Source: Sipunculus nudus (lineage: Eukaryota > Annelida > Sipuncula > Golfingiida > Sipunculidae). From it: a stretch of DNA of 64,000 nucleotides. How positions within the stretch are numbered: position 1 is the stretch's first letter; each line of letters starts with the position of its first letter. The notes under the pieces were generated by a model, which saw nothing but the letters and a program-made list of their open reading frames with translations, was not told the origin of the DNA and made no database searches. The position numbers and the translations under genes are program-made. The DNA is taken from positions 66,542,056-66,606,055 of the forward strand of contig CM049310.1 in the NCBI GenBank assembly GCA_026874595.1, written 5' to 3'. Positions 8,696-62,147 of this stretch are shown piece after piece.

Positions 8696-11335
8696 ATGGC
8701 TTCCTCAGACGACCGATCGGCACACACGGTGCAGGAGCGCGGTGTAGCTGTCGGGCACCCGCTCGAATGCGCGGATTCTACAGAGTGGCTCAGGTTGTGG
8801 GCGGACACGTTGACGGCGCTGATCGATGTGAACGTATCAAAACATGTGTATCCTGATCTTATGCTTCAGAGTTTGCCACGCTTGCGGTCAAACGCGTGTG
8901 TGGCAAAGGAAATGTCATTTTTTGTACGTGAAAGTCTGCATTGTTCTTTATCGCGTGTCACGTACGGACTGTCCTTGCTCTTGCCGCGACTGTCCCTCGA
9001 GATGGATCACGTTGCTTCCTGTCTGGAAGAATACGTTCGTAACTCTCAAGACATGCAGCGAGACGCGAGGTGTGGTAGAAACCAGGGCTTGACGGAACAG
9101 CAGGTTGAGTCGCTGTGTCAGAAATACTTCCGTTCTGTGCTTCGGACAGAGGACTGTCGGTTTTGGCACACAACGGGCAGTAACACTGCATGGACGGTGC
9201 ACGAGATGCAGAAATGCTGTTGGGACCTTGATTTCGCTTTTTACAGCACACCCCTGGAAGAGGTTATTACCGCCCTCGGAGAGCTAGAGGAAGTATGTGC
9301 GAAACTGTTTGTTTCAGTTTGGGTATTGCCTCCCCACCTGTTGGATATGAGCCTGGGTTGTTTAGCATGTGTTTCCGCTCAGGCCTTTGCGTATTCCCTC
9401 GCGCAAGATGGGTCCCGTGCAGGGGCCGACCCACCTGAACAAACCAGGTTAGGTGCCAGTAACTGTTCTCATATTGTGTCATGTGACACGGGGCATGATC
9501 TTTTCCAGACGTTAAATGTACCGGCAGGAAGCGGGTCATGTCAACGGGAGCGAAGCAGAGATGGAGCTGCTCCTGCAGGTGATGGCGAACGTGTGGCCGC
9601 GGTCAACCAGTTGCCTAACGCTCCTGACATGGCACTGGCTGCCGGTTCTCCACGTCCTATAAACTCTGTCGACCCCACTGAAGACAGGTATTACTGTGGT
9701 TTCGGGAACACCTCTGGCGCAGACGACAGGCTCCTCAAGGAGCTGCGACTGGGTAACAGTCATGTGGCAGAAAAGACCCGTCTGTTGTTGGAAAACATGA
9801 GGCGCGCCCGTTCGGAAATAGACTCGCATTGGCGGAATTCGGCTGATATTTTTAGATGGTGTGGTGAACGCGGTGACACTGACGTGCAAACCGAGGGTCA
9901 TTACGCGGGCAATGCCGTTCTCATGTACACGGTTCCCGTCTACGGGTTGACTGTTGAAGAGCTCGTGGGGAACGAGTTTGCGGCCATGGACGCTCAGGCC
10001 GAGCTTGAAGCCCGCAAACACGAGACTAGGATCAAGGAGCAGTTGAAAAAAGCTAGGGACCGTGGAGTCCAAGACGCGCCACAAGCTGTTGCGTGGGACA
10101 TCATGAAAGGGATTAACATGGATGGTAGCAAAAACGGGGGTTTGGCGCAAATGTTGGAGCGGGTGACAGGGAGGCGTTATGGGGTCGGCAACCAAGCAGT
10201 TGGATGTGGAAACAATGAACGTCCTGGACGTTCTTGCGTTGATGATTACATCGATACCTTGGTTACGGAGATGACGTCATGTGACATAGACTCCGTCCAG
10301 AAATCGGTGGGAGAGCGCGTTTTCGAACGTCACCGCAAACTGGTGAGGGCGAGGCACGCAAAGCTGTTGCGCAAATTGCGCAGGGCGAAAGAAGACCTGT
10401 CCTGTTGCATGCAGCCCCGCGTAGCGGGACAAGAGATCTTGTCAGGACTTTTCGCCGTCAGACGATGTGTCAAAGCAGTGCAGCTCTTCCGAGAGGTTGT
10501 TTCCGCGCAGGCGGGAGCAGACGTGAACCCCGACGATTTGCAAAATGGTTGGCTTGTGCCTGGGGACGGGTCACCGTATGATCCGTCCCGTGTTCCTCGC
10601 CCGCGTGTAGCTGAAGCGTGGGAGGTCAGTTGCGGGGAGCCCCTGCTGGAAACTGTCAACATATCGATGGCCTCAGAACTGACTAAGTCCCTGCAACTTG
10701 GCCCTATGTGGATGTCCAGGGACTCGCACGAGGATACAGCGTGTCCCGTCAGGGCGGGATTTGTTATGCACGCTGTTTGGTCTGCAAGAGGCGTCCCCGC
10801 GTCTGCGCGTGCTGACGTTGAGAGGTTCTGCACTTTGAAATCGGAAATGGGAGCACTGGGGTCACGTCAGGCGGAACGCTTCGGGGATGTGTTCCCAGTG
10901 ATGCAGGAACAGTATCTGGAACTGTTGCAGCAGTTGCGGGCGCAGGAAGCGCAGACGTCGTCAGGTGATGCCGAAAACCAAACTCGTCTGGACAGTTTGA
11001 AGCAAACACGGTTTCTCTGCCACATGCACAAGGTTCGGTTGGTGGCATATGCTGTTGTGGCGCACCAATTGGCCCATCCGGGGAACCGTGTCCGGTGTCT
11101 GTCTGTGGCCGATCCGTCACATTTATGTCCGGGGGAAGGGGGGGAGGTTTACGCTCTCGAGGAGGCTGTATATGTGGGGCCCGCTTTTTCACCACACACG
11201 CTGATATCCAGGCGACACTACACGCCTCCGGTAAACGACGCTGACGCACAAGAGGCAAACGCGCGGGATCTATGGGATATAAAACAGAGTCATGACATCT
11301 TCGAACTCCTGGCTGCTGCACCAGCGACGCGTTGA
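8696..11335 (+). CDS. Unrecognised 879-aa protein
   Basis: ATG at 8696 and TGA at 11333-11335, followed by AATAAA near 11384. The chain has a folded N-terminal region (~20-235), a polar spacer (~236-330), and a long C-terminal region with two strongly basic helical stretches (near residues 442-465 and 540-570: runs of Arg/Lys with heptad-like spacing). There is no membrane segment, signal peptide or enzyme motif. The size and design (helical, basic, with a flexible middle) would suit a tegument or packaging protein, but no motif ties it to a named family. It stands alone on the plus strand between two minus-strand blocks. Confidence 0.8.
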   Translation: MASSDDRSAHTVQERGVAVGHPLECADSTEWLRLWADTLTALIDVNVSKHVYPDLMLQSLPRLRSNACVAKEMSFFVRESLHCSLSRVTYGLSLLLPRLSLEMDHVASCLEEYVRNSQDMQRDARCGRNQGLTEQQVESLCQKYFRSVLRTEDCRFWHTTGSNTAWTVHEMQKCCWDLDFAFYSTPLEEVITALGELEEVCAKLFVSVWVLPPHLLDMSLGCLACVSAQAFAYSLAQDGSRAGADPPEQTRLGASNCSHIVSCDTGHDLFQTLNVPAGSGSCQRERSRDGAAPAGDGERVAAVNQLPNAPDMALAAGSPRPINSVDPTEDRYYCGFGNTSGADDRLLKELRLGNSHVAEKTRLLLENMRRARSEIDSHWRNSADIFRWCGERGDTDVQTEGHYAGNAVLMYTVPVYGLTVEELVGNEFAAMDAQAELEARKHETRIKEQLKKARDRGVQDAPQAVAWDIMKGINMDGSKNGGLAQMLERVTGRRYGVGNQAVGCGNNERPGRSCVDDYIDTLVTEMTSCDIDSVQKSVGERVFERHRKLVRARHAKLLRKLRRAKEDLSCCMQPRVAGQEILSGLFAVRRCVKAVQLFREVVSAQAGADVNPDDLQNGWLVPGDGSPYDPSRVPRPRVAEAWEVSCGEPLLETVNISMASELTKSLQLGPMWMSRDSHEDTACPVRAGFVMHAVWSARGVPASARADVERFCTLKSEMGALGSRQAERFGDVFPVMQEQYLELLQQLRAQEAQTSSGDAENQTRLDSLKQTRFLCHMHKVRLVAYAVVAHQLAHPGNRVRCLSVADPSHLCPGEGGEVYALEEAVYVGPAFSPHTLISRRHYTPPVNDADAQEANARDLWDIKQSHDIFELLAAAPATR

Positions 11336-27089: not shown

Positions 27090-27540
27090 ACGCTATTTGC
27101 ATTTGCTGGTGAGCAGGTGTTGGATGCTCAGGCACAGGAACGTTGAAACGACACAATAATAAAAAATGTGTGACACTTCGTCTCTCGAATAATTGCCTGA
27201 TCGTGCAGTTACAAACCGGCGTCCCCCTAAGTGTACTGTTATCCGTGATAAACGCCTCGACTAGCCGGACATGTGTCCCAGACGTTAACCCGGATGTCGA
27301 CATTTGGCCGCGGCAATGACACTCAACTTCTCCGACGACTTGCTACCAGAATATCTGTGGACGTTCCCACATGAGTGCGAAAGTCGTGCGCGTGACGTGT
27401 GTAGCAATTTGCAGTAACACCGTTTTCGGGCGTGAGTGGTTTCGCAAATTAAGGACAGGATACCAGGCATTGCACTACCGCCGCACGCAAAGTCGTTCAC
27501 GCCACATTAGACAAGTTTGCTGATACGATCGAATAACGGT
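27090..27540. other. Intergenic region with poly(A) signal
   Basis: 451 bases. AATAAA at 27158-27163 ends the 4-TM transcript; the remainder should hold the promoter of the Bcl-2-like gene. No coding frame on either strand looks real. Confidence 0.5.
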
Positions 27541-28080: not shown

Positions 28081-28189
28081 CAGAGACTTGTATTTGTGCA
28101 GTGGGGGATGTGTATCTGTCTGATGTCACAATGACAGCTGCCTCACCGATCAATGCGGGATCATTATCGTGCTGTGTGCGGCATTAAAT

Positions 28190-30605: not shown

Positions 30606-33230
30606 TCATCTGGTTAACCGGTGGCATATCTCGTAGTTTTCTTTTATACAATCAAACATTTTGTCTACCATCCGGTCTGTGGCTATCACGTTTGTACACA
30701 CAAGAAACCTCGGCAGTGATCTCAATCCAGTCAGAGGGAACAGTTTCTTGTGCGTATGTTCTGCCAGTACCCACATGTTGTGCCAGTCGTTGTCATCAAG
30801 CAGATCTTCTGGGATATTTTCGTTGAAAGCCGAACAGACGATTGATTCTGTGTCTATAACGTGCCTACCCGTTGATGCGGCGATCACTCCGCATGTTCCG
30901 ATCACTTGGGCTGCGTATGGGTGCAGCGGGTTGAGTATCACCCTGCTCCTAGTGCCGTTTGGCGCTTTGAGTGATGCTTCCGTGTCCTTCAGTGATGTGA
31001 CGGGGGAAACCTCTGTTTGAGACTTTCGTTTGTCCGGCAGTAAGAACGGCCCTTCCACTGACGGGGCTGTGATCGTGTGATGAAGACTGCACACCAGGTG
31101 ACGTTCTGTGTCCCCGCAGTCCGTCCCCACGTTTTCGACCGTGTAGTCTAACACGTACGTGGACGTTGAGCCTCTGTGTATGTTCAAAAACAAGTAATGA
31201 TACGCAAAGGGGTGTTGGCGTACCGATAGTTGCGGCGTTTCCTTAATGAGCGCTTGCAAGCCATCTATCGACTCGTCCGTCGCACGGCAGAGGTCTGCGT
31301 CGATCTCAACGTACACGTTCCTTTCGGCGAACGGTTTCTTACGGCCTCGTTCTTCTTTACACAAGCGTGAAAAGGCCGGCAGCCGGTCCAGACCGACGTG
31401 GCTGAAGGACTTGTCAAACGCCTTCAGGTTGTATCCCTTCACGTGTGTTAGACCGCTCATGTTTGACCAATCTTTTGTTGCACTGAAATGGCACTTCACC
31501 TCGATGAACCCTGTCATGTCTTCAAACACAGCATCAGGTGAAACGCCGAGCATGGGGTACTTCTCCTGGTCAGGGTGCAAGACCAGGCCCGTGCTCTTAA
31601 GCTGCCCGAAGCCGATCACGTCACGCAGTACGTCGATCACGATCGGTTCGAAAAGCAAACCGTGTGCCATAGGGTTCGTCGCTGCTGCGGCTGAGGACCG
31701 TGCAGCTTCACAGACGCTTTCGGGTGTTTTCCATAGTTTGTAAAAACTATTGAGCATGACAGATTGTGACTTACATATGAACCTTTGCATGTGCGATGCT
31801 GTGACGCGCCCCAACCTCCAGTACCACCAGTACCAGTTCGATGTCTGGCCTGTTGTGAGCATGGCAAGGCTGCCCAGAGCGCCCTTCAAAAGAGCTTGTG
31901 CTTCTTCTGTGGGAACATCTGTCTCAAGTGTGTCAGCGTCTGTGGCGGACAGCGTCTGCTTGAGGTCAGCGGTGGTAGCCATCGAGAGCGTATTGCAGAG
32001 GCGTCGCCATTCTTCAGCGTGAGGATTTGAGTGGAACCGGGGGTCGCATGGTTCTCGCACGCTGTGCCGACACTTTTCTGTCCACACATCCTGTGTTTGA
32101 CACCTGCATCCCGGAGCTGTGACGTGAGCATCACTGGGACTGCCGCCATCGATACATCGACGGATGTCTCTGTAGGTCGTCTTGTCCACGCGGCACCTGG
32201 AGCACGGCTGGAGACACCCGCTGACAATGACAGATGCCTGCTGCACACTGAGCGCGGCATCAGCTTGTGTGGCCTTCACCCGGTAGAATTCACGGCATGT
32301 TGCTGCGGTTCTGTAGACGCGTCTTGTGTCCTGCCATTGCGGCCAAAACAGGTAATCGGCGTTTCGATGTCTTTCCTCGGAACTTGAAACTGACAGCCAG
32401 CACGCCCGAGGGCGGTAGACAGCAAACCCCACATGTTCCGTCTCGTTGTTTAACGAATGGTGCAGCAAACCCACTATTATGACACCTAAGGCCCACAGGT
32501 CTGCATTCTTGCCCACATCGGGTGTGAGGTGGGGGCGCAGCCGTGAAAAAAGCTCTGGAGCTCGGGATGTCCAATAGATGGTCGGGTCCCACAGACGTTT
32601 GCTGAACGGGCAGACGTGGTTGGGCATCAGGTCCTCTTGTGGACATGCGGCGTTACCGAAATCGATAATTTTGACATCGGGTGGCATGCACCATTTTTTT
32701 TTCAACATAACGTTCTTGGCAGACAGATCAAAATGGAAAACCCCCAGATCGTGCAGGTGCAGAACACCTTCGGACGCTTTAGACGCGACCGTCCAAGCCA
32801 GGTCGTCGTCGTACAGGCACGAATGCATGAACGTGTGCAACGTCATATCCATGCGTTGGGACACCAACAGCTCGGTTATCGGCGACACTTCTGATCCAAT
32901 GCGATAGGCCTTCCCTGTCAAAGCCTCCACCACGTCCGCGAACAGTTTGTGTTTACGCGCGTTTTCTTGCAACAAAACGAGGTCTTCATTGACACCTTTC
33001 GCCTTCAAATGTTCCATAATGTTTAACTCGTGTTTTGCGTGTTTCGTTTGGCATATTTTAAACACGTGGTCCGTGTCCGTATGTAAGTACACGTGCCCGT
33101 ATGTACCACTGCCTATACGCTCTAATCCCCGTCGTTTTAGTTCTTCAGGTTTCAATAGCTCTACTTTTCGATGAGGGTTAATTGGCGTGTCACCGAGATC
33201 CGACATGGTTTCTCTGCACAAGAGGTCCAT
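30606..33230 (-). CDS. Protein kinase fused to a YqaJ/alkaline-type exonuclease, 874 aa
   Basis: One open frame from ATG 33230 (or 33206). Residues ~35-330 are a Ser/Thr kinase: Gly loop GSGTYG (40-45), VFK with K58, catalytic FDLSAKN (D168, N173), DFG (190-192) and APE (224-226). A Cys-rich linker (~340-400) follows. Residues ~465-700 are a PD-(D/E)xK exonuclease of the YqaJ/alkaline nuclease type: GRVTAS (474-479), GLLFEP with E528, GVSPD with D566, and IEVK with E577 and K579. The last 170 residues are unrecognised. In mammalian-type herpesviruses the kinase (UL13/UL97/ORF36) and the nuclease (UL12/UL98/ORF37) are neighbouring genes in this same order; here they form a single polypeptide. 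Likely roles are phosphorylation of viral and host proteins and processing of replicating DNA ends. Confidence 0.88.
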   Translation of the reverse strand: MDLLCRETMSDLGDTPINPHRKVELLKPEELKRRGLERIGSGTYGHVYLHTDTDHVFKICQTKHAKHELNIMEHLKAKGVNEDLVLLQENARKHKLFADVVEALTGKAYRIGSEVSPITELLVSQRMDMTLHTFMHSCLYDDDLAWTVASKASEGVLHLHDLGVFHFDLSAKNVMLKKKWCMPPDVKIIDFGNAACPQEDLMPNHVCPFSKRLWDPTIYWTSRAPELFSRLRPHLTPDVGKNADLWALGVIIVGLLHHSLNNETEHVGFAVYRPRACWLSVSSSEERHRNADYLFWPQWQDTRRVYRTAATCREFYRVKATQADAALSVQQASVIVSGCLQPCSRCRVDKTTYRDIRRCIDGGSPSDAHVTAPGCRCQTQDVWTEKCRHSVREPCDPRFHSNPHAEEWRRLCNTLSMATTADLKQTLSATDADTLETDVPTEEAQALLKGALGSLAMLTTGQTSNWYWWYWRLGRVTASHMQRFICKSQSVMLNSFYKLWKTPESVCEAARSSAAAATNPMAHGLLFEPIVIDVLRDVIGFGQLKSTGLVLHPDQEKYPMLGVSPDAVFEDMTGFIEVKCHFSATKDWSNMSGLTHVKGYNLKAFDKSFSHVGLDRLPAFSRLCKEERGRKKPFAERNVYVEIDADLCRATDESIDGLQALIKETPQLSVRQHPFAYHYLFLNIHRGSTSTYVLDYTVENVGTDCGDTERHLVCSLHHTITAPSVEGPFLLPDKRKSQTEVSPVTSLKDTEASLKAPNGTRSRVILNPLHPYAAQVIGTCGVIAASTGRHVIDTESIVCSAFNENIPEDLLDDNDWHNMWVLAEHTHKKLFPLTGLRSLPRFLVCTNVIATDRMVDKMFDCIKENYEICHRLTR

Positions 33231-33341: not shown

Positions 33342-33352
33342 ATATATTTATA
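33342..33352 (-). promoter_or_regulatory. TATA-type element upstream of the kinase-exonuclease gene
   Basis: The minus strand reads ATATAAATATA about 115 bases before the ATG at 33230, within an AT-rich stretch of the 177-base gap. Confidence 0.45.
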
Positions 33353-33407
33353 TATGGAATGTGGTTTTTTATATATATCATGACGTACCGCGGGTCACAT
33401 GATGCAT

Positions 33408-34511: not shown

Positions 34512-34535
34512 CGCAACAACGAAGCGCAGTGGAAA

Positions 34536-38329: not shown

Positions 38330-38382
38330 GTTTCTTGATCGATCTATTTCGGAAGTGTTCTTGTGATGAGTGGGCAGATGTC

Positions 38383-38472: not shown

Positions 38473-40443
38473 ATGGCGTGTCATGAAACGAACAGCACGA
38501 CACAAAAACGTGAGAGCTGTTTTCAAGAAGGACTAAAAGACGGATTGCATGCGTCCCCAGCCGAGATACTAACCAGCCACCGGTGGAAAAGATATCGTGA
38601 GCGATACGGCGATTTTGATGGGCCCTTACTCGCTTCACAGTACGTAGGTGCTATAAGAGGAAGCCAGGTGTGCGCTGTTTGTGCGTTTAATGCACGTGCT
38701 GCACGTGATGAACAGTTTTGTGAGTGGGTGGAAGGTTTTGCTAACGCCATGCAGTTTAAACCTTTCTTTTCTAGCCTGACCACGTCCCTCGTCATTCTTT
38801 ACTGGCGCCGCGTACACGCAGCTCTGACACGGCTCGAAGCACGGCCCGCCGCTGATCCCGATGATATTTCGAACGCGTTAGACGAAGATGTGTTGAATTC
38901 AATCACACCCGAAGTATTTCATGTGCACTTCATCCACAACCGCTGCCAGTTCTCGTCGTTCAATACAGGACACGACAATGCTGGACGTGTGGATGGCAAC
39001 AGGCCGCTCTTACGTATTGAAAAGGGGGATATGTGGAGGACGTGGCACGTGCACAATAACAGCCACATTGTAGCTCAGATTTTGCAGTTACACAATGGGT
39101 TGGCCCTGTGGCAACGTTCTGCCAGCCAAGGCTTCCATAACACTCCGGCGAACGACAGGGTAGACACTAGCGCAGACAGTGCGCGTATTATCGGGCCGTG
39201 GGTTGTGACGTCCGGTTTAGAGTTACCTAGACTACCCACGACCGACGACATCCACCAAGGCGACACGAACGCGAGTGGCAACAGACAACAAACGGACACA
39301 GCGGGTTTGCACCCGGAAGAGTACGAAGAGGCTCTGTGTGTTAAAGCCGATGCATCGTCGAGGTTCAAAGACATTACCTGCATGATGGCAGACGCGTGCT
39401 TTGGCGTGTGTGGGTCAGACATGTCAGAATATGTTCGTTCGTTTCAACGCAGGTGGGACTTCATGTGTGACCTTACACGTGATACAGATACGGTTCAGTG
39501 CAAAGACAACATAACAACCGGACATGTTGCACAACGCGCTGCGCGTTCGGGACGTGCCCCTGATTTCTCTCGGTTTCGGCCTTACCCGACAGGAAGGGAA
39601 CGAAACAACACAGGTAGAGAGACAGCAGCGACGAGAACCGTGTCCCCCACGCTCGTACTGCGGGGTTACAGTTCCCACTGCGGTCGTTCTTGGCACCAAC
39701 CTGACGCATTACTTCAACACGAAAATAATGCGTTGACGCCTTCTGCTGCTGAGGAAGAGGGGGCCTGTGTTGCGGCAGAACCCTCAGAGGCCGGCATTGC
39801 GTACCGCCGGATGGCGGAAACACTGGAAGAGGTTCGGTCCGTTGTTCTGCGAACGTCGCAGAGAAGCCGACTCAACCTGTTAAGAGGTAAAAGCAAGTCC
39901 TTTTTTCCTGCTGTCACCCCGCCTGAGGGTGTGGAATGGGCAGTCGATTGGGAACTGGCACCGGAAGACACACCGACAGAGTGCTTGCTGTGCGGCATGT
40001 GCGCATTCTACGATTGGTACCGTGTGATAGAACATATGCTATTGTCGTTAGGCATGGAGAAGGCGTGCGCAATGCAGCCGGTTGCCAACGTTAACACATT
40101 CGTCTCTGTGTTAAACACGTTGCAAAAGCGCTTGTCAGACATGTCTCAACGCGACGTGGATCCACTCGACGGATTCCTATTGAAGGGTTTGAACCCCTCG
40201 GTTTTTTACCATCACGCGTTTTCGTCTCCGCTGTGCGCATTGAACAGGGCACGGATGGGTGTGATGTACGAAAAGGATTCTTCGCTGCCTTGCGGTTCGG
40301 CAGTTGTCGCAGCATTAATGTACGTCGTGTACGGAAACTTCAACAGTTCTTGTAGGTTTCGCCCCCTGTGGTTGAAACGGTGCATGCAAGTGTTACAGGG
40401 ACATAAAGTGTACTGTGACCCCGGCGTGTGCTTGTCCGGTTGA
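38473..40443 (+). CDS. Candidate UL32/UL52-family DNA packaging protein
   Basis: 656 aa from the first ATG at 38473. The frame is open upstream, but without an ATG. Two Cys motifs stand out: C67-A-V-C70 near the N-terminus and C504-L-L-C507-G-M-C510 in the last quarter, followed by a His-containing helical region. UL32-family packaging proteins (UL32, cytomegalovirus UL52, EBV BFLF1) show widely separated CxxC zinc motifs of this type. The middle (~270-470) is polar and variable. The call rests mainly on position: the next gene on the same strand is a UL31-like gene, exactly as in other herpesviruses, where the UL32 homologue lies directly upstream of the UL31 homologue. The family acts in capsid DNA packaging. 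Confidence 0.5.
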   Translation: MACHETNSTTQKRESCFQEGLKDGLHASPAEILTSHRWKRYRERYGDFDGPLLASQYVGAIRGSQVCAVCAFNARAARDEQFCEWVEGFANAMQFKPFFSSLTTSLVILYWRRVHAALTRLEARPAADPDDISNALDEDVLNSITPEVFHVHFIHNRCQFSSFNTGHDNAGRVDGNRPLLRIEKGDMWRTWHVHNNSHIVAQILQLHNGLALWQRSASQGFHNTPANDRVDTSADSARIIGPWVVTSGLELPRLPTTDDIHQGDTNASGNRQQTDTAGLHPEEYEEALCVKADASSRFKDITCMMADACFGVCGSDMSEYVRSFQRRWDFMCDLTRDTDTVQCKDNITTGHVAQRAARSGRAPDFSRFRPYPTGRERNNTGRETAATRTVSPTLVLRGYSSHCGRSWHQPDALLQHENNALTPSAAEEEGACVAAEPSEAGIAYRRMAETLEEVRSVVLRTSQRSRLNLLRGKSKSFFPAVTPPEGVEWAVDWELAPEDTPTECLLCGMCAFYDWYRVIEHMLLSLGMEKACAMQPVANVNTFVSVLNTLQKRLSDMSQRDVDPLDGFLLKGLNPSVFYHHAFSSPLCALNRARMGVMYEKDSSLPCGSAVVAALMYVVYGNFNSSCRFRPLWLKRCMQVLQGHKVYCDPGVCLSG

Positions 40444-46097: not shown

Positions 46098-49000
46098 TCA
46101 TTCGTCGCTCATGTAAAGCCGGATAAGGTCGTACTCGTCGTTCAGATTACGGCCTTTTCGGGGGGGTAATATCGCAAGCGGTTGTGTTTGGCGGATCGTG
46201 TTTAGGGTGTTACATAAAACCGTAAACAGTTCCGAATCATGAATAGGGCCTTTGGTCTGTGTCTGATGCTTGTGCACACCAGGGGTGGGTACGTGCATGT
46301 TCCTGTGTTCCACGTGTCGATCAACCGGAATGTCAACCGGAACAAACTCGCGACTTGATCTGGGAGAGCGGGGTGTGGCCGTCATTTCACGTGAACCGAA
46401 TAAAGTGGACGGTTGACCCTCCCGCTGGTAGGAACGGCTTGGCTGGTCTTCGTAGACGAATTGAACGCCTTGTCTCCGTGTATCCTCATTTTTAACATTT
46501 TTGCGATGGTCTTCACGTGCACCTGTTGCATCCTTCACGTATGAGGTGTCCCTGGCATCAGTCTTGTGGATGCTTATCCCCAATAACGTATCGGATTCCT
46601 GTGATTGTGTAACATCTGATTTTGTAGAAACGTTTGCGTAAGGAGCTCTGTACTGTGGCTCAGTAACACCTGTTTCTGTAGGTACTTTTGTTTTAGGGGC
46701 TCCATATTGTGGCGCAATCACTTTTGATTCTGTAGAGACCTTTGTGTATGGAGATATGTGTTGTAGCGCAGTTTGGACGGGATCGGTCAACATGGATACA
46801 TGTATGGTTGGTTTGGCGGGTATATTTGTTCTGTTAGGAATGATGTTGTCGTGGGATTGTGTATCTTTTAGACGCAACCCTTTTTCACGCCGTCTGGTAT
46901 TTGGGTGTTTAGATTTATGAATTAACGGACGGTTTGGCTGTGAATGGCTCTTCAATCGTTGCCTGTCACCCGTCTCATATGTATCCGATGATACATTCTG
47001 TGTTTCCGCAGTACCTGATAGAGTGCGAATGTCTCCTATACTCATGTTAGCAAATGACTCTGTTATTTCCCTAGATATGCCTGCCCTTTGTTGTGCATAT
47101 GGACCGGAGCCCATCTTACCATGTATTGTTACGTCATCACACAATTCGTAACTACGATGTTGTTTCCTGTGAGGCAGGTGTTCTTGTACGTCATCGTCTG
47201 ACTTTGATTGTATATTTGCGCATGATATATCACTTGCGGTTTGTGAGACAGGTAACGGAGATATATCAGAAGATATATTACGCGAGTTGCTATTTAGCAA
47301 CTCCTCCGTCTGTTGTATCTCGTGAAACAGAGACACGCCATCATCCTCGGACCCTGTCTGTCCCTGTGTCATATGGTGTTGCTGTACATTTAGATTTTGT
47401 AGTTCTGTTTCTGAGAGTTCGTCGACACGAAACTGTGTTTCATTGTCGTTGGGCCTTGCAACTTCTTCGTTTGTGTACATCTGCAACGGGAATTCTGGGT
47501 GCTGGTCCGACGAAACACACTCCAGGTGACCGCGATCACACCAAGGGATGAGTCCCGCGTCATCGCTCGCCTTTGTTGTGCGGACTCTGTAAACCCTTCG
47601 AAACCAACCCCGTTCAACTTCAACGGGACCGCATATCCTTTCGCCATACGTAAACGACAGTTGGTTTACTTTCTCGTTGTGTTCGTTTGCCACAGCGTAC
47701 CCCGTCGGCAGGAACCGCTCACCACCGTCCGTGTTGAGACCGTCTGTAAGTATCTGCACGCTTATTATAGGAATGAACGTCGAACCCCTCAAACCATCCA
47801 GGTACTTGTTGACTGGGACGTGAGTGCTGCTAGACGCGGACGACCTCGGAAGTGCAGCAAACAAGGGCAGGGCGCTTTGGTCGAAAGAGAAGAAGTACCG
47901 GAGTATATCTGTTGGGCAGGTGTCCGCCGTGAGAGGGGCAGGGTAAGCAGAAGCCGGATCGATGATTCTATCCACGTTTGGGTTGTACGTGGAATTGGTC
48001 CATTCGCGATGAAAAGGTATTTTGCTGCCGGCCACGGTGTCGTAACACGTGGCCAATGGTATACCCGTGACGAGCGAAAAGAGGATGACGTCAAATCGGC
48101 ACCAACCTTGTGCCTTGCTTTTCATACCCGAGCATGGCCACGATACATCATACGCTCGCACGTTGGAGCCATCCTGTACGTATTCTTCCGGCTTGTCCAA
48201 CCCGTACACGTGTTGAAGGACACTCCGCTGCATATCTGCTGCTTCATGCATTGCTACCTCTCTTTCTTCGAATTGAAAACCATTGTTTTCATTTCCACAT
48301 CTCGTTGGCAAGTGCGTGTATTCTTCCAAGATGTGGTCCCAAACTGACCCGACACCGTGGCCGTGTTGTGCCCACAGTGTTTCCAAGACTTCGGAGTCGA
48401 TCATACGTCCGGCTGTCACTGCATAAGCCATAAAGCCTCTTAGCGTTTCGGCAACACGCAAGCACAAACGGTCGTCCCATCGTGGCTGATTGTTTGTTGA
48501 CCATCGCGTCGGTATATCCTTGCTCAGAACGTAGTGGTGGAGGCCTGTTTTACCGAGCAAGGCTTTCAGGCCCCAGTGCACATTGGAGCCGCAAAACGCA
48601 AAGACAGCTGCCGTACATGTTGCCAACCAGAAAAGGTGTGAGGTCCGTCCCGTGTCCGAAATGATGCTGTCCGTCATCCTGACCCATTGAAAGAGGTCTT
48701 TGTCTTTCAAATTGTAGACGGGTCTCCCACACACGTTAAAAAAGGTCGGCAATTCGCCCCAGGGCCCGACGTCTTGCTCACCGTTTATTGCCCTGGCGGA
48801 ATTCACTTTTTTCATGGCCAGACAGAACCTGATCCCGTACACCCACAGGCAGTGCCATGTCTCCTGGGCTTTTTGTGAGCTGATCCACCATCCCTTGACG
48901 CCATCTGACCGCGTCTCAACACCTGTCTGACGTCCATGCTCAGCCTTCAATGCTTCCAATGTTTGTCGCGTGATAAACGGATATACGCATTCGAGTACCC

Positions 49001-52000
49001 TGAACACGTGCCGCGCGACCTTGTATAAACCAGATGTGTTACTGGTGCCATCGTTCGGAATTAGGTCCGTGACGGAAACAGTTTGTTTTGTCGTAATACG
49101 ATCCAGGGGTTCACGACTGAACGGCAAGGCGGCTTCCACTGTGATGTGTTCTGACGAATTGTCCTGTCGTCCGGCGGCTTGCGCTAACCCTGTCGTGCAA
49201 CAAAATATTGTGTCCATGTCACATTGCGGCACTGTGTAACAGTCGTTTTCGTTTGTACATGTGAACAACCAGTTCCCTTCGTAACGCGCACCCTCTCTAG
49301 TACTCAAAGCGATATCGTGTTCTCCGCGTGCCTTGAAAAACTGTTGAAATATAGTACATTGCGTTTGGAAAGTACTTGGGTCATTCAGAAACATAACAGT
49401 GTCTTCTGACAATAATGGACGCACTACGGACATGTGGTCTGCTGCGGCGTCTAATTCGTTGTGGCCATCAGACTGTTCTCGGATATGCATCCACGCAGAG
49501 ACGGGTCCGATAATTTCGTAAAGGCTAGAACACGTATTTGGCTCGGGTTTCCGCATTAGTCGCGTGAAACCTAAACTTGTGGAATTTGCCACAACAGCAA
49601 CCAAAGGAACACCGGGCGGTTTGGTTGCGTACACGTCGTCAATGTGAGCAAAGCTGTAATGTGAACGTGGGTTGTCAACGTTGCCGTGCGTGACCTCCTG
49701 CATGCACACATGCAAGCTCAAATGTGCCTGCACTAACACACGTTCCTGTAACGGGGAGGGTTGAGTTCGCAGCACAACGTGCACCATGTGGTTTAAACAC
49801 TCTTCTGGTAACCAACCGCCCGGGTCAGATGGGTACGTGTAACCTGACACACAAACGTCCATTATCACACGCGTTGAATTCCACGTTTCGTAACCTACCG
49901 TGATATTGTTTTTCTTTAACACTGTGAGCATTCGGGCTTGTTGATCCATTTGACAGTTTACTCTTGCCAACCAGGCGGAACAGAGTTGCCTTAATGCGTC
50001 AGGGAAGGGATGGAGCATTATACCTGTTCCAGACTGGTATGAGATAACTTGTTTGAACAGGAGGTCGCATTCCGCCCGGCTATCGTATTCTACACAAGAG
50101 CCCCAATTGTTCTCTTTCTGGCTCTTTTTATAAATGTTATGTGTTTTTTCTTGGTGCAACTGCCTGACATCCTTTTGGGAAAGCGTACATTTGTACACCT
50201 TAGGGATGTTATCCAGCCAGACGCGCACGCGTTTCAGGTTTTCTTTGTCGTCTGTGTCGTCATGTGACACGTGCCGAACAAACGCGGTCATCAAACGTTC
50301 TCTGACGACCATACCGTCACACCACCACGATTCTTCACACTCTCGTCTTTCGTCTGGTGTGTCAAGATGCGTCGCCCTTTGTATCAATTCCAAAAACGCT
50401 TGGTATGCATCGATCCTCGTTTTACACGTGTTATATACCTCGTTTAACACTTGCAGACTGACGTTTTCGGTTATGTTGATACGAATTTCTGTGGTTGATG
50501 GCCATGTGTGTTGCAACCTGCTGAAAGCATCTTCCGCTTCCATCATCATACGGGATAGTTCTTCCCTTTTGTTTTGCACATCCGCCTTATACGAACCTAC
50601 AGTTCCGAAGGGGATGGAATCATGTTGTAAAAGGTTGCGCAGGTTTTGTTCCGTATATTCCATAATTGCCACTGACATCTGCACAGCTTGTTGAACAGAA
50701 CGTCTACATTCGGTGAGACGCCCCTCTACGTGTGTATAGTCGTGCAGCTGTTGCTGCTGCATGTCAAACAGACTGAAGACCATAAGGCTTGCTAAACATC
50801 CGAGAGTGTGATGCACCGATAACGCGTTCGCGTGATACGTCATCTGTTCAGTATGTAAGGAGATGAGGTCGAGATGTAGTTTGTCGGCGAGTATCAACAT
50901 TCGCTGCGTGACATCTTCCTCTATATCCGCAACTAACTGTTCTACGACACAAGACATGATGTCTGGTACGCTGCGCATGTTGCCTGTTTGAGAATGCGAC
51001 ATTTCCTCTGTGTACTTCTTCCCCATTAGCGCACGAGTGTCGTCCATATACCTGTTGCATATGTGTTCGTACCACTTACAGGATGTTAAAATGCATTGTA
51101 TGATCAACTTGCCATGTTCACAGTGTCTTTCAACTGTTCGGATACATTTATCGATAAGCGTCTTTATGCCATTACGCAAACCGTCAGTATCCGGATTCCT
51201 GTTTTGCTCATTTACTTTACGTTGCAGGAATTCTTTGCATGCTGACACGTTGTTTTCTATCAGCGTGGTCCGCCGATCATGTTCTTTGTCAACAGCTCGT
51301 TTTGTCAGTTGTATAATTTGTTGTTGTGTGTTTGCTGATTCGTGCATGAAATTCCTCGTGCCATAACAGGTATGCAGGTGAGTTGACACTTGCGTTTCTG
51401 TATGTATCTTTGCCTGCAACCAATCCAAGAACAACTGGCTGCTTTTATCGTCCAGCTGCTTAATCCATGCGTCGAGTATATATTGGGGTATATAGGTGCT
51501 TACTTCATTTTGCAGACGTTGCAGGGAATCCTGAATGGCAGACTGTGTCCTATTCCACGAAGGATACACAGTTTGAATGAGCCACGTATGAGCGTATCGG
51601 AAACTGTATATTATGGTCATAGCGTCCTGTAAGATGTCCTGTAGTTCACCTGTATGTCGTATGATGTTATGCAGGTTAACGGAAATACCTTTTCCCGCCA
51701 CTGTCACATCGTCACAGGGCTGCCCATGGAATAAAGCCGTTTCTGCAACGATCAACTGGTGCCCGCTTGATATGTCGTTCCGGATTCGGTCTACAATAGC
51801 ATGCACACTCTGTTTAAAATTATCCGCGTACTTAAGGGCCGTTTGATAGCTGGATCCAGTGATTTGCAACGCTAACGTTTGAAATGCTGTGAGGGTTCCT
51901 GCCACAAGATCGTACACGTACTGGTATTCCTGCGACTGCAGGATCCAGGAAACGGTGGAGAGCGAAGACTGTACGCGCTCACCCATGCGAGAAGCTTTAT

Positions 52001-55000
52001 CTAGCCATTCACGCAAGTCGGGCACATCTTCAGTCGGGTCCAACCTGCTGTCAGCTGGTATTTCAGAACGTAGTATCTTTTCACCCTGTTCGAACGCCCA
52101 CCTGCGAATGGACTGCGCGAGGTTTTTGGTACTGCCTAAAGTGGCATCAACTGATTTGTTCAGAAGTCCCACCAGACCGTCGAACCATTTTACATCGTCA
52201 GGCTTCAGCTGCTTCAGAAGTGTCATGACGTTGTTACCTGTACCTCCTGTTGTAAACATCCCATCCGTGCCGCCCCAGTGAGCATTCTCCTGGAGCAGTT
52301 GGTAGCATCGGTTCAGTAGTTCGCGTACATTACATGTACGGTGCGCTATGCATTGGTAGTGTACGTGCTCGTCTGTCAAGTGGTAATTCACCAGGATGTC
52401 CTGCATTTCCTGTATGGCATCTTTCAGTATATCCTTTATCACACCCTCTAGCTGCTTACGCAGGTGTGAAATGTAGCGTTGTTTCAACATCTTTTCCGCC
52501 TTGCCCACCCGTTCCTGCTTGTTTACGCTATCTGGCTCCTTGGCTATTTCTTGTTTCAACATGTTCAGTTCATTTTGTATATGTCGTAAACTGTACAATG
52601 CATAACTAACGCTTTGAAAACTGTTGTCCACGTTTGTGGTAGCTTCCTGTGCAGCTGTTTCCACATATTTGAGTTTCGTTTCGAACATATCTGCCATACA
52701 ACTGCGCTTGGTGTGCTCCATGTCGTGCGTTTCCATCATGTTGTGAAGGCGGTCGAGGTTAGCCGTCACAGATGTCCAAGCTGGCGTTTGTGGATACAGG
52801 TTCTCGACACTTTGCTTTAGTCGATCGGTGATCATGTGGCTAATTGCATTCCCGGCACTTTCTATTCCGCTGATGACGACATGGCCGGCTTCCAGTTCCT
52901 GCCTGTACGTGGTTCGGGTTCCCGTCCTCGCGGCAACTATGTCGACAAGACGGTACAGGCGTTTAGCTAAAGGAATGTCACTCGTCCCAAGCTGTTTAAC
53001 GCCAAGCTGTGTGCCAAACCTGACCTGATCCTGCAGCCGCGTGGGACATTCCAGGACACGCGCCAGGTGTCGGAAGAGCGAATCCAGCATCCGGGTAACC
53101 TCATCTGTTGGCCCACATCTGTTCACGTGTTGTAGTATGGTGTCGGGCAGATTTGCTTTTTCAGATAAACCGGTGGTCAGCAATTTATTATAAGCCTCGG
53201 TAACATGGTCTGCAGGTTCGCCGTGTTCGGACCCGGTGTGTTTGTTATCCATGTCGTTTTTTTGTCTTAGGTGTTCCGCACGCACATTCAGCAGCTGAAT
53301 CTGGTGTATGGCTGCATTGATGCTTTTGTCCGCTGTATGCAGTTTTTTCGCGAAACCACCGTCTCCTTTGTTCCAATGGGTACCCGCCGCTGCTTTTGCT
53401 GCCGTCAGGGCGTTTAGCGTGTCATTCAGTCGTTTTTGTGAGTCGCGCAGTTGGTTGTTCGCTTGGTCCAGTCCGGTTTGGTCCCACGTGGTAATGAGAT
53501 GATGCATGCCGTCCTTAGAAAAACATTCGATATCCTCTGAACTGGCCTGTATGGCAGACGCCGAACCTCGTACGGTTTCCGTGCAATCTCGCACGGTCTG
53601 ATCCGTCCACTCGTTGAAAACCTGAATGATGCAATGGAGCAATACGTTGCTGGTCCTCTTCGGGGTGGTTTCTCTCCAAGCCCGTTCTGTGAGAAATTGA
53701 ATGCGGCTGGCGTTGTCTGTGTCACGCGCGCACTGCTCTGCCCGAAGGTTTTGATAGATTTCAAGCAAAGTTTCGGCTTCTTTACGTTTCCGTTGATATT
53801 GCTGTTTCTTGTCTGAGTTGTCCGAGCACATGTGTTCAAGCAATCCGAAAACGGCCGGGACTTCATCCGCGATACAACGTGGAGCATCCTGTGAGGCACC
53901 GTCGTCTAGTCCGCTTGTGTACGCGTGTGCCAACCGCTCTACGTCTTCTGTCAAACGGTCTGTCCAATGTGAACAGTGCAAGCAGAGATCCGTAACCTCT
54001 TCTTTAGTGAGCGGATAGATCGTGTCCATGTATTGTGCCAGGTTGCTTGTCACGTCTGTGAGAGTGCCACTTGCAGTGAGATCTCTGACGATTTCCTCGC
54101 GCCTCTGGCGTTTTTCTTTAGCTTCCAGTTCTTTTCTTTTAGTCTGCATGACCCTCTTGGCCTCCTCTATCTGTGTGCGTGTGATTGGTTCGATTTTTTT
54201 AAAACGGATCTGCTCCTTCTCCTTATTTCCCCAAAAAGTAGTGTCCTTGCTGGCGACCAGCGTTCCGTCTACCACGCAGTTACCGCGTCTGAGTTTGTCC
54301 AAGGTGCTGTTGTGTATATCGAGTACTCCCACCTGCTGATCGAGTTCCTTCTTGTACATATCGATATCACGTGTATTTTCAAATTGAAACGTCTTGCATG
54401 CCTGGATCCATGCACGTGTCTTTTCCGTTGAGGTGTTGTATTGTTCAGTGGCGACCAGCACTTCTTTCAACCATGCCGTTTCTGCTGCAGCCGTTTCTGC
54501 CGCAGCAGTTTGCGCCGCGTGTGTTCTGGCTATCAATTCGTCATCACCTGTGCCCCGAACGGTAGAGGACTGCCCAGGACTGCTTGCGGTTTGTGCCTGT
54601 ACATGCTCGGCTGTTTTCCAGCCTTGCAACTTTCCTATGAGCGCGTTTGCCTTATCGTTCTTTGCATTCAGTAACTGTAGTATCTTCTTCAAGCCGTCCG
54701 AACGACATCCTTTTACGTCGAACGGCTGGTCCTGATTCCCACCTAACTTTTGAAGCCATGCTGCGGCTTTATCCTCACACCACGAAAGTGATTTCTTCAC
54801 CTGGCTCACCTTTTCAATGTGTTCTTCCAGGAGAGTGACATTCTTACGGTTGCTTTCGTCCGACGTGTACGACGCGTCTACGTTTCTGAACATCTCATCT
54901 ACTCGACTTACGTGTTCATTTATCTGCTTTTCCAATTCCTCGCTTTCGGCGTTCCACACGTTTTTGAAACAGCAGCGCAACCCTTTCAGAATAGGTTTGG

Positions 55001-58000
55001 TGCCGGGCTGACGAGCCCAGGCGATCAACCTGTTCAGCTTGTCCTCGCGGGAATCGTTGTGAGAGGCATTATAAACGTCCTTGCAAACTCCGAGCAACTC
55101 CTGCAGCTCAGCGCCGGTACTGTTAGGTTTCTCAAGTAGACAGATGTAACACGGTAGTTTTTCAGGCGGAGCATCGCATCCAGGTGGACACGATTGCTCA
55201 TAGTCAGACAATGCAATTTCGACGTCTTTGACCACGTTATTGACCCACACTTCCACCGCCTGTTTCCCAAACGATACGTCGTCCTTTTGCAGAGGCAGAA
55301 GAGATTGTACGACGTTTCTGGCTCTCGCGTATTCCAGTTGACCGCTTTTCACGAGCTGCAGCAGTTGTTTTCTCTCTGCGTCCTTTTCCTGTTTACTCAG
55401 TTTCTCCAACTGTGCCCGCAGTTTCGTTCTCACTTTCTCTGTGTCCGGCAGGTCGGGGATCGCATACACCTCTGCGATGACCCGCAATTCATCCCATATC
55501 CCTGCGGGGATGCCATGGTCTTTCATAAGAACATTTTTGGTTGTGCGTCGCAGGGATTGCCCATCACCCTCCAGCTCGTCGATCGTTTGTATAAACGATG
55601 CTGCTTCTGTGCACGAAGAGCACTCAGTACCCATGCAACGTTTAATAATTTCCTCGAGGTGGCGCTTATGAGAGGCGTAATCGTCCTTGGCTTTGCTTAC
55701 CCGCGTGTTCCATTTTTTCACCTCCGGGCACCTCTGAGCAATGGTAGCGATGCGCACCTGCATTGGTGTATTCTTTTCCGTCAATATGCGACGGGCTTCG
55801 TCCCGCGTCAAAGGATCGTTCTCGTGACGGTCGTTATTCACTTCGTCGGACGGGTTTTCTCTCACTGATGCCGTTTCGGGCGCTGAAGGAGGGCCCTCTA
55901 TTGGTTCAGTTTCGGTCAGCGGCGTTAAAGGGACATTCATTCTCCTCCGGTGCGACTTGCGGAGCTGTGGTAGTGACACTACCCGTGCGCTCACAGCAGC
56001 TATGTCCTGCTCTATTTGTTTCAACTCTCTCTGCAGCTTTTTCTCCGTTTCTGTCAACGTGTTATGCCATTGTCCATTTTTTTTAGAGGTAACCCTGTAC
56101 TGTGCTGCAGATTCATAAACGCTTCTGAGCAGTTCCCGCAAGTCGTCCTGCATACATGTGATCTTTATCTGCATGCGTCGTAAACTTTTTTCATCGTCAC
56201 CACTGGTCCCGCTTCTGATACGCAGCCTCATCAGACGTAATTCGGGCATAATCTGACCGAGCATTGCATCGACTCGTTCGTCGAGAATAGAAGCGTCCAG
56301 TTCGTACCATGTCTCGAGGCACGCGCGGATCTTATCATGTACACATTGCAAAGAAGCATTCTCGAGCCATGCTTTCAGTTGATCCACCATGTCTATCAGC
56401 GTTTTGTTATGGTCGACGGCGCTGGCGCGCAGCACCCTGTACATTTCCAACAGCGCTCTGCCCGTCGCAACTTGTGTATCCGTTTCTTTGTGTAACCAGA
56501 AAATCCCGGGCACTCCACGGGGTGGCTCGGCCAACATGGACGGTGACTCTTCTGCTTTTTTTTCGATGTGGATCAGGGCATATTCGATGTAATCGGCCAT
56601 GTTCGTCATCCATGCTTCGACGGTACTCTTAGCGTCTTTTTCTTCTGCGGGCGTTATTGGCAGGACGTGCTGGTATTTCGACTCGTTTCGTTTCACGTCA
56701 TCGTACGTGACACTGGGGTCTCGCAATTCGTTCAAAAGGCCTGCCCGCATGTCTGCGATTGTTTGATCATTTTCTTTCTTTTCCCTTTTGGCTGCTTCTG
56801 TTTCTGCCTTGTCTAAAGCCTTTGTAGCCTTCGCTGTGTTAGGCATTATGTTTATCTTGTGCTTACGCTCTACTTTCTTTTTCACAATCAGGGGTATATC
56901 GACGCCCTGTAATGATGGGATATTCGTACGCGCTCGCAGTGCTTTCGTCTTCAACATTGTCAGTTTCTGCTTCATTTCCTCTACCTCCTCGATATTTCCA
57001 ACCACTTTGGACGTGCAAATTGCACAGAAATGTGCAAGTGTGTCTCTACGTTCGTTGTATACTTTGACTGCCTCTTCATACCGTTTGACCAACGACGCAG
57101 CATGTTCGTCCATCTTTCCGTGCGTCACGCCTTTTGAGGGGCGACCTCTGTTGTTTGAAGCTTTTCCGGGTTGACTTTTGATATGGAGCTTCTTGCGGGT
57201 CGATGTGTTCAGATCGTCGACTCCTGGGTCGCCTTCGCCTGATCGCGGAGGGGTCTGTTCATCACGGGTGATGTCACCCTGCACATCTTCCATTTCTTCC
57301 GTCTCGGATGGACCCGAATGTTGCTCGTATGCCGCCACATCCTGCTCTTCCATATCCGCTTCAGCCCCTGTGTTACAGGCGGAGGCGGGGTTTGGTTGGC
57401 CTGCCCCGTCATCGGGCTGCTCCTGAGCAGGTCTTGTGGCGACGTCCTCTTCTGTCGTTTCCTCACGGGTGATGTCACCTTGCACATCTTCCATTTCTTC
57501 CGCACCGGACTGACCCGAATGTTGCTCGGATGCCGCCACATCCTGCTCTTCCATTTTCTCGTCAGCTCCTGTGTTACAGGCTGAGGCGACGTCCTCTTCT
57601 CTCGTTTCGTCCACCCGGTCCGACTGCTGCGTATCAACTGGCGTGTCCGCCCGCGGCGTGCTGTGGACGGGGGCAACAGGGTCCGTTTGCTCTCGGACAG
57701 GTGCGTCCACTCGGTTCTCAGTTATACTGTACAATCTGCTTTCGTATCCGTTTACTTTCAGCGTGTACGCGAGATTTGTTATATGCTTAATAGCCTCTGC
57801 AAGAATGTCAAATCCCAAAAGCACAGATGTGCCCGTTGGTGTGACCTTCCCGCGCATGTCCCGACTGTGCGAATCGAAGACGTAATATTTGCTACCTTTT
57901 TGCATGACAGCGATTGCGCAGTCTTGGAGTATCAGGATCGATGATAAGTACCCCTTGTCGTCACACAGAGCCATCCGTAACGTTCTGTAAGTGTTACGGA

Positions 58001-61000
58001 AATCATTTCTGTTAATTAGGTCGCTCCGGTACATGTACGATACCACAGAGAAAGAACGCGAGAAGCAGTCAATCGTTTCCGGCAACTCGTCCAAACAAAC
58101 GTATCCCGCGTCTTCCACAGGGTACCCTTTAATGCTGTAGTAAAGCTGGTCGCCGGCGTCTAAAATGTCGTCTAATGTGGAGGTTGTCCAAGTCTCCGGG
58201 TCCTCAATGCTGCACCGGATCAAAGCCACTGCGCAGTTGGGAACACACTGTTTTCCGACTGAGAACGAAAGAAAATGTTGGTGGTCCCCCTGGTGAAATG
58301 ACCCCGTCACGCACTTCGTGATCACCGGGTGTCCAGGTGGTATATCACACGCGTCTGTGTTTGATGCATCTTTTCCCGTTGTATCTTTCTGTGACGCGTG
58401 CCGGGGAGGTCCGCCTGAACTCGATCGTGTTTCGTCCGGGCGGTCGCTGCGAGGCATATCTCTCTGTTTGTCAGATCCTCTGCCTTCGTTGGCGGTCTCC
58501 GTATCACATGGGCGGTCACCGCGTGACGCGACAGTCTTTCCTTGTGTATTGACAGGGACACGCCGTGCGTCGTTCACGCCTCCCTCGTCTTCCACCGTGC
58601 CGTCCGACTCATCCATGGTAGTTACACTAATAGGCACGTTTCCCTCACATTCGCTACTCTCGTCCATATGCTGTTCCAACGTGTCATCAGACGCATCGCT
58701 GTCGTCCATGCTCTGCTCGAACGTGGCAGGCATATTCTGTATTCTTTCTGTAAGTGAAACAGAACTCGCGTCATCTTGTTCCTGTCCGTCCTGTGTTTCT
58801 TCTGTTTGCATAAACGGTGCACCTGTGACCGTGTGTGAATCTCTCACCCGCGGTGCTAGGAGGGAAGCGTGGTCCGCGCTGGGGTTTGGGGTCTGCGGAC
58901 GACAAAGAGTCATATCTACACTATACATACCGCCTTTGTCCAGTTGGAAGTACTCCCGAGTTTTTATGTCTTCGAACGTATCACACAACATAACACGTGT
59001 CGGATAGTCTCCAGACATGGAAGGGGCGCTATCGTCACCTTCCATTTCTCCACACTCTTCCGCGCTGGTTTCCCTCTGCTCACAGGCTGTTGTGTCCATC
59101 TGGTCCGACTCGCCCCTCGCGCCGCTCGTATTTTCTTCATGTGTTGTTTGTTCTGCGTTTTTTGCATGTCCGGCGGTGTCTTCCGCGGTCGGTCGTTCGC
59201 CTGCCTTTTCCGAGCCCGAGGGCGTCGTAACTGTGTCATCAGCGGGCCGGGATGATAACTGACATGGCCGATCGTTCTGCGCACTAGATGCTCTGCGCCG
59301 TTGTCCTAGCCGCTTTTTGCGTATGCACTTTGGCTCGTCTTCCGACCCAGGAGGTTTCGAGTACGGGTGGTCAACGTGCGCAACGCGTAGCTGGCGCCTT
59401 GGTCTCCGCTTGGGAAAGTCAGGAACTGGTGTGGGGTGTATGACACGAGGTTGTAGTATTTTGGTACTGAGCCGTACCGAGTTGCGTTTAAGACGTCGCG
59501 CTGTCTTCCTCAGAGCTTCCTTTTGCTTGTCGGCGGTAGAATGCTGGTTTGATGGTTTCAAAACACTCTTGTGGCCCTTTCGCCCACGCGTTTCTTTTTT
59601 GCACGCACCCGTGTCTGGAGAGCCGTCTGCGATACGGCGAGCCGCCTCCGCACCACCTGTATGGGCAACAGGCGTGGCTGTTTCTCCTACCGTCCTTAAA
59701 TGTTGATTTGCATCTTGTTCCGGTGCCTCATTCTCCCCCACATGTTGCGGATGTTCAGAAGGAATATCTTTGTCAGCAGTATCCCCTGGGACGGCAGAGA
59801 CAGAAGGCGCGACGTGTTCAGCCCCTGCGTTTTCCCCCAGATCAGTGACAGAGGGCGCAGTGGGTACCTTATCGGGACAGATGTCTGAAGCGCTAAATAT
59901 GTCACATTGGTTCATTGCCATCTGCAGGATGTCCTCTTGGCCCTGCCGCATGGGCGTTCCCTGTGCTGTATCGCTGTGAAATGGAGGGTCTTGGGTACCA
60001 GTTGTATCCGTGCTGTGTGCCTTCCCTTCTTGTATACTTTCTTGTTCGTCGGTTTCATGTTGTTCAATGTGATGTGATGTGCCCCCGCCATCGGCAGTTG
60101 CGGGGCAGGGAACAAACCCATTTACTGTGTCACCTGTAACCTTTTTCTCTTCATGCCGCTCGTCATGCTCTAGGGCGGCGATGATGGTGGCGACGGCACT
60201 TTCGGTTTCGTCCGTATCAGATTTACTCAGTTGTCCCTCTTCACCTCTGGCTTCTTGGCCGATGCTCGAACCTGTTACAGGCCGTTGCTGTGTGTTGACC
60301 CCGGTTGATGAAGACACGTTGGACGTGTCTGAGGGGGTCTTTCTCACAGGGTCATCCTGCTGTTTGCGGTCGTCCTCCCCGTCAAATGAAGGAAGACTGA
60401 ACGTGGTATCCTCTGTGAAAGGATGTTGATAGTGTACAGACCCGGACGCGCCCTGGTCAGCAGGTTGTGTCTGAACGCCTTGGTCATTTGATTGTCCATC
60501 GCCAAACAGTTCAGATAAAATATCGTTCAGATCTATACCACCTTCGCACTGTTCCGCACAGTACAAGTTTTGATGTCCTATGTGATCAGCCGTTTCTGTG
60601 GGCAGTGTCAATTCCCGTGTGTCGTCGGCTGTGTCACCTGGCACACGATTGGGCTGCCCCGTTCCGCCCTGTTGGTAGACACCATCCGCTACCTGTTGTG
60701 CCCCCGCTTCCGACTGCCGCAGTTCGATTTCTGCAGCAGCAATTGCGGCTTCTAGTTTGGCCCGTTCTGCTGTAGCTTGTGCGGCTTCTCGAATGGCGCG
60801 TTCTGTTTCAGCTTCTGCGGCTTGTAGTCTTGCGAGTTCTGTTGCGGCCAGTGACATTTCACCTGTCATCATATCGAAATCGGTTTCGTCTTGGTTTGAT
60901 GACGAGGCTGGAATCTGAGCACCCAGCATTGTAAGCTGACCCAGCAATTGTTGGGCGGCATTATCGTCGTCTACGTTCCTATCGGTTTCGTCATTAATCT

Positions 61001-62093: not shown

Positions 62094-62147
62094 TTTTATT
62101 ATTGGAACTGTCTGACCTCTACAATGTCCGTTTTGCACTGACGTTTG
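62094..62147. promoter_or_regulatory. Very short divergent promoter region
   Basis: Only 54 bases lie between the start of the giant gene (62093, minus) and that of the 513-aa gene (62148, plus). No clear TATA box is seen, so promoter elements probably extend into both genes. Confidence 0.35.

Follow-up and report, generated by a model that had tools for sequence, protein, structure and literature searches.

A single open reading frame joining a Ser/Thr kinase and an alkaline-exonuclease-like domain in a herpesvirus-like stretch of a Sipunculus nudus assembly

The protein kinase and alkaline nuclease genes of herpesviruses are adjacent and in the same order in the pairs UL13–UL12 and UL97–UL98. 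In Kaposi's sarcoma-associated herpesvirus (KSHV), the partly overlapping ORF35, ORF36 (kinase) and ORF37 (nuclease) are described on a tricistronic mRNA with one poly(A) signal, and ORF37 is produced from its own transcript, which starts inside ORF36 (PMC3561293); in Epstein–Barr virus (EBV), BGLF3–BGLF3.5–BGLF4–BGLF5–BBLF1 have one common poly(A) signal, with bglf5 preceded by a TATA box (PMC4148442). Here we describe a fused kinase–exonuclease frame in a 64,000-nucleotide stretch (the window) of the Sipunculus nudus assembly GCA_026874595.1 (contig CM049310.1, positions 66,542,056 to 66,606,055, forward strand). We consider it likely that a divergent herpesvirus makes from this frame one bifunctional protein of 874 residues, consisting of a Ser/Thr kinase (residues ~37–360), a short cysteine-rich joint and a full-length herpes-type alkaline exonuclease (residues ~401–874). 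Directly observed are the uninterrupted frame, the two domains with their catalytic residues intact and, at the flanks, a single TATA cluster and a single poly(A) signal; the fusion is a real, unusual arrangement of two known herpesviral enzyme types in a known gene-pair order. The preliminary description of this DNA knew of no herpesvirus protein of this architecture, and no such fusion was found in a literature search lacking most subscription journals.

The 874-codon minus-strand frame contains no internal stop and the window no ambiguous base, while the plus-strand reading of the same interval is full of stops. The chance of an open frame of this length at this base composition is ~3e-18; the longest stop-free run across 100 whole-window shuffles was 312 codons, and the frame is therefore not a chance run. 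The earlier description of this frame as a kinase followed by a PD-(D/E)xK exonuclease is supported, and all of the residues named for it (GSGTYG, K58, D168, DFG 190–192, E528, D566, E577, and K579) carry the numbers assigned to them.

A Pfam-A search of the fused protein at E up to 1 gave four matches in all. Pkinase matched residues 37–259 (57.6 bits against a curated cut-off of 31.7; E 1.7e-15), with PK_Tyr_Ser-Thr also above its curated cut-off over the same stretch, and YqaJ matched residues 468–585 (30.7 bits, cut-off 22; E 4.6e-7) without overlapping the Pkinase match. The fourth match, Viral_alk_exo (residues 457–574; 14.0 bits, E 0.021), was below its cut-off of 20. PHROGs yielded matches to a generic kinase family (E 2.5e-8) and an exonuclease family (E 2.3e-5), and NCBIfam weak matches alone, far below cut-off.

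The kinase half combines an above-cut-off Pkinase profile match with the lysine, aspartate and DFG residues of the superfamily, and its motifs comprise GSGTYG (40–45), K58, HFD (166–168, including D168), N173, DFG (190–192), APE (224–226), and DLW (244–246). Read by eye, CLQPCSRCR (339–347) resembles the conserved C-lobe terminus, and the kinase half looks complete. When the first 360 residues were compared with PDB sequences, the nearest was cellular DAPK1, matched in the catalytic-loop stretch (E 5.3e-5 and 7.3e-6). HFD in place of HRD is common among herpesviral kinases; DAPK1 likewise has HFD, so this motif decides nothing. The Pfam UL97 family was absent from the matches of the fused protein, although a divergent member could also miss it. 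It is position that points to orthology with UL13/UL97: as for the conserved herpesvirus kinase, the domain is directly 5′ of an alkaline nuclease on the same strand, here within one frame.

The C-terminal half is assigned to the PD-(D/E)xK/YqaJ exonucleases by its profile match together with the catalytic E, D, and ExK residues, which are invariant in the alignment (A1), the rows of which were partly selected for these residues. Among PDB sequences, the nearest to the last 435 residues was 3syy (LHK-Exo, a lambda-type exonuclease), at E 0.003. A Foldseek search with the model of the nuclease half gave no match in PDB or BFVD at E up to 0.001; in the VIA-align list, a re-examination of the candidates that Foldseek itself had returned, the model aligned nearly end to end with EBV BGLF5 (2w4b) and KSHV SOX (5hsw, 3pov). 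Nine cysteines fall between residues 339 and 412, around the junction of the two halves (Table 1).

The signals flanking the frame are arranged as a single transcription unit for one protein would look. Neither AATAAA nor TATT[AT]A occurs inside the frame, and its sole TATA[AT]A[AT] is at 30648, close to the frame end; no equivalent of the promoter that serves the nuclease in KSHV and EBV is visible in the fused frame. These observations bear on whether a continuous frame yields, additionally or predominantly, a separate nuclease from an internal start codon (Met417 or Met457), a possibility that we regard as unlikely. Such a start would have precedents in the separate ORF37 transcript initiated within ORF36 in KSHV (PMC3561293), in the TATA box ahead of BGLF5 in EBV (PMC4148442), and in UL12.5 of herpes simplex virus 1, which is described as overlapping UL12 without its first 126 residues. 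Met417 is near the domain boundary and has G at +4, and Met457 has a purine at −3; however, Met417 lacks the purine at −3, Met457 lacks the G at +4, and a start at Met457 would drop residues 401–456, a segment aligned with the EBV enzyme in the model. On the minus strand from 33230 to 30649 there is no TATA[AT]A[AT], and although TATA-less starts are possible, the bare TATA/TATT tetramers of the frame (at 33157, 33117, 32576, 30858, and 30648) are none of them shortly upstream of Met417 or Met457.

Convergent assembly, in which a host-captured kinase was joined to a phage-like YqaJ nuclease in a fusion unrelated to the UL13–UL12 pair, appears equally improbable. It would accord with the canonical motifs of the kinase and its DAPK1 matches, with a nuclease that scores higher with YqaJ than with Viral_alk_exo and has nearly the D–E spacing of phage enzymes, and with a study of herpesvirus domains that attributes the YqaJ domains of two herpesviruses to independent acquisition, most likely through gene transfer (PMC7000910). 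Yet the kinase–nuclease order is that of the herpesvirus pair, as the preliminary description had noted and as the published accounts of KSHV ORF36–ORF37 and EBV BGLF4–BGLF5 bear out; the nuclease has the length of the EBV and KSHV enzymes and a tentative end-to-end model match to them; Viral_alk_exo matches the same residues as YqaJ; a turtle herpesvirus UL12 is likewise annotated with a YqaJ domain; and Pfam matched no other kinase or nuclease family in the 26 other frames of the window that were searched.

The coding signal is weakest around the junction. Scored by the codon usage of 14 other window frames in 28 overlapping windows of 60 codons, the reading frame beats all five others in 25 of 28, but it narrowly loses at residues 301–360 and 331–390 and ties at 361–420, with a score of about zero there; the dip coincides with the junction and the last part of the kinase. 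A non-coding stretch would remain open with a probability of 0.013 over 94 codons and 0.0019 over 135 codons, the latter being the span previously suspected of hiding a stop; the junction is open beyond likely accident, and its coding status is not proved. An intron, frameshift or assembly error at this point, such that the genome or mature mRNA really has two separate genes, would fit the weak signal and a nested 124-codon frame in another register (31886–32260), but it is very unlikely given 874 codons without a stop, no ambiguous bases, and a sole GT[AG]AGT donor on the minus strand between 30200 and 33700 that is inside the nuclease core (31774), away from the junction.

Herpes core genes occur in the same window, as expected for a member of Herpesvirales. 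Among the 27 distinct window frames searched with Pfam (the fused frame included), a giant UL36-type frame matched Herpes_teg_N above cut-off (57858–58301, residues 1298–1445; 32 bits against 25, E 1.2e-7), with QC and DSH stretches visible within the match, and two further frames gave weak matches to packaging-protein families (Table 1). Herpes_V23 matched at chance level (E 0.24), and there were also weak non-herpesviral matches (a RING finger at E 2.2e-4 and several at 0.04–0.12). No Pfam match to a polymerase, terminase ATPase or major capsid protein was obtained among these frames. Herpes_teg_N, PRTP, and Herpes_env are listed among 41 domains inferred for the Herpesviridae ancestor (PMC7000910), and a structural survey of salmonid herpesvirus 1 (SalHV-1) reports UL32 and tegument homologues as not detected (PMC13030845). 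Because the window has UL36-, UL28-, and UL32-type domains, as opposed to SalHV-1 without UL32 and tegument homologues, its gene content leans to the orthoherpesviral side, as judged from these profile matches. Searches of PDB sequences gave nothing for the UL28-like frame and chance-level rows only for the UL32-like frame.

Table 1. Positions of the fused gene, its parts, flanking signals and herpesvirus-like genes in the window
Feature	Position	Strand	Remarks
Fused kinase–exonuclease gene (protein P0001)	30606..33230	minus	874 codons; ATG at 33230, TGA ending at 30606
Protein kinase domain	32151..33122	minus	Residues 37 to ~360; Pfam match 37–259, extension to ~360 by eye
Junction	32031..32150	minus	Residues 361–400; within cysteine-rich stretch, inside weakest coding signal (301–420)
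Alkaline-exonuclease-like domain	30609..32030	minus	Residues 401–874
YqaJ core	31476..31829	minus	Residues 468–585; W468, RLGRVTAS 472–479, E528
Catalytic VSPDA...IEVKC stretch	31491..31544	minus	Residues 563–580; D566, E577, K579
TATA cluster, candidate promoter (consensus match only)	33346..33377	minus	116–147 bases 5′ of start codon
AATAAA	30508..30513	minus	93 bases 3′ of stop codon; sole one on minus strand between 30200 and 33700
Giant frame, UL36-type large tegument protein	46098..62192	minus	5364 codons; listed with a TTG start, first Met at residue 34
UL28-like terminase subunit	8696..11335	plus	Weak PRTP match, 21 bits, cut-off 24.6, E 1e-4
UL32-like packaging protein	38473..40443	plus	Weak Herpes_env match, 16.9 bits, cut-off 25, E 0.0033; scanned from TTG at 38335

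Several other frames of the window have recognizable features. The N-terminus of the giant frame contains an OTU-protease-like stretch, DGNSFFRAV (61971–61997, minus; residues 66–74), ~1200 residues before Herpes_teg_N. OTU proteases usually have DGNC, with the catalytic Cys; the corresponding position here is Ser, and Pfam gave no OTU match in this frame at E up to 1. A 404-codon frame with a CSTCLAMK stretch (40510–41724, plus) immediately follows the UL32-like gene on the same strand, a position that would suit UL31 given the UL32–UL31 order, but it had no Pfam match and only chance-level rows among PDB sequences. The 979-codon frame at 17298–20237 (minus) includes a polymerase-like GMDANQFYPTL without a Pfam match and could, as a guess, encode a degenerate polymerase, for example a UL8-type protein, and the 1622-codon frame at 21290–26158 (minus), without a match in Pfam, PDB sequences or IMG/VR, has a size that might suit a major capsid protein, likewise a guess. 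A 286-codon frame (45105–45965, plus) has P-loop-like GEDGCGKS and VVVMDDVHLL stretches, with Pfam AAA_22 at E 0.19 only, and the C-terminus of the frame at 3583–4770 (minus) resembles a RING finger (best E 2.2e-4, below cut-off). Two frames close to the 3′ end of the fusion (26430–27089 and 28190–29380; region 26430–29380, plus) encode candidate membrane proteins with four and five hydrophobic stretches. A UL14-like gene 5′ of the fusion (33408–34622, minus) and a UL11/gM-like block 3′ of it were considered and are not claimed, Pfam having given no herpes match for either.

In the reading that we favor, adjacent kinase and nuclease genes, overlapping in KSHV/EBV-like relatives, most likely came into one frame, and one mRNA would most likely give one nuclear protein. 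Like UL12-type enzymes, the nuclease half would trim or resect the ends and branches of viral DNA so that it can be recombined and packaged, a role that accords with the packaging and genome defects reported for UL12 mutants (PMC13030845). The kinase half would phosphorylate viral and host nuclear proteins, and the fusion would link kinase and DNA-processing activities by fixing kinase and nuclease at 1:1, by carrying the kinase to viral DNA, and by allowing phosphorylation of the nuclease or its partners in cis. In EBV, it has been proposed that the kinase counters the shutoff by the nuclease, opposing effects of the two proteins on viral mRNAs have been reported, and a role of BGLF4 in promoting BGLF5 phosphorylation is contested (PMC10054251).

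Two enzymes encoded by neighboring genes elsewhere would be one protein here, and both jobs could be physically tied in this virus. Should the fusion be real and conserved among relatives, it would be a natural experiment arguing that both enzymes share substrates or a place, and it would allow control of the nuclease by the kinase to be measured in one purified protein; if the coupling in cis is true, the kinase–nuclease pair would be functional rather than merely neighboring. The fusion is also an added marker for placing divergent herpesviruses. More tentatively, as a possibility short of probable, the lineage may belong to none of the named families or branch at the base of Orthoherpesviridae, with kinase and alkaline nuclease in one polypeptide, phosphorylation and DNA-end processing coupled in cis, and a functional pair older than the split from the mammal–bird–reptile viruses. 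The preliminary description went further in taking the pair as an ancient feature of the order, which is not supported: in the SalHV-1 survey the exonuclease is ORF45, apart from the kinase-like ORFs 20, 83, 85, 119, and 120, none assignable to UL13 (PMC13030845), and a molluscan herpesvirus domain survey lists exonucleases and mentions "kinase" twice in its main text, both times as guanylate kinase. At most, the pair may predate the split of this lineage from Orthoherpesviridae.

IMG/VR, queried with six eight-residue patterns per protein, which exclude close relatives alone, gave no relatives of the fused, UL28-like, UL32-like or 1622-codon proteins, and a kinase-motif pattern had no match there; INPHARED and PLSDB had no match to the fused protein. 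Among GTDB contigs, a pattern was matched by seven stretches, of which one encodes a relative of the fused protein; we take this one, without proof, to be the window itself, in which case a herpesvirus contig would be part of a prokaryote genome assembly.

Lambda-type/YqaJ exonucleases, among them the phage enzymes LHK-Exo (3syy) and lambda exo (1avq) as well as mimivirus R354, differ from the fused protein: the phage frames retrieved span 146–366 codons from stop to stop, the 35 that were aligned are without the ~170-residue insertion between the Lys and Gln motifs, and at E up to 1 the kinase half gave no alignment with any of the 134 motif-bearing frames. SalHV-1 (Alloherpesviridae) ORF45 is herpesviral and of the same fold class as the nuclease half (PMC13030845), but it is described as a separate gene with the kinase-like ORFs elsewhere, whereas the window has the fusion together with UL32-like and UL36-like genes. 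EBV BGLF5 and KSHV SOX share the catalytic D, E, and K with the nuclease half and, judging from the model, may share its fold over nearly the whole length; the D–E spacing is 11 in the fused protein and 23 in SOX, and the fused protein, unlike orthoherpesviral alkaline nucleases, has an N-terminal kinase and matches Viral_alk_exo only weakly. As here, KSHV ORF36–ORF37 and EBV BGLF4–BGLF5 place the kinase directly 5′ of the alkaline nuclease on the same strand, and share a poly(A) signal; those pairs, however, are two proteins from overlapping frames with an ORF37 transcript or bglf5 TATA box of their own, whereas in the window no internal promoter is seen and the kinase and nuclease lie in one frame.
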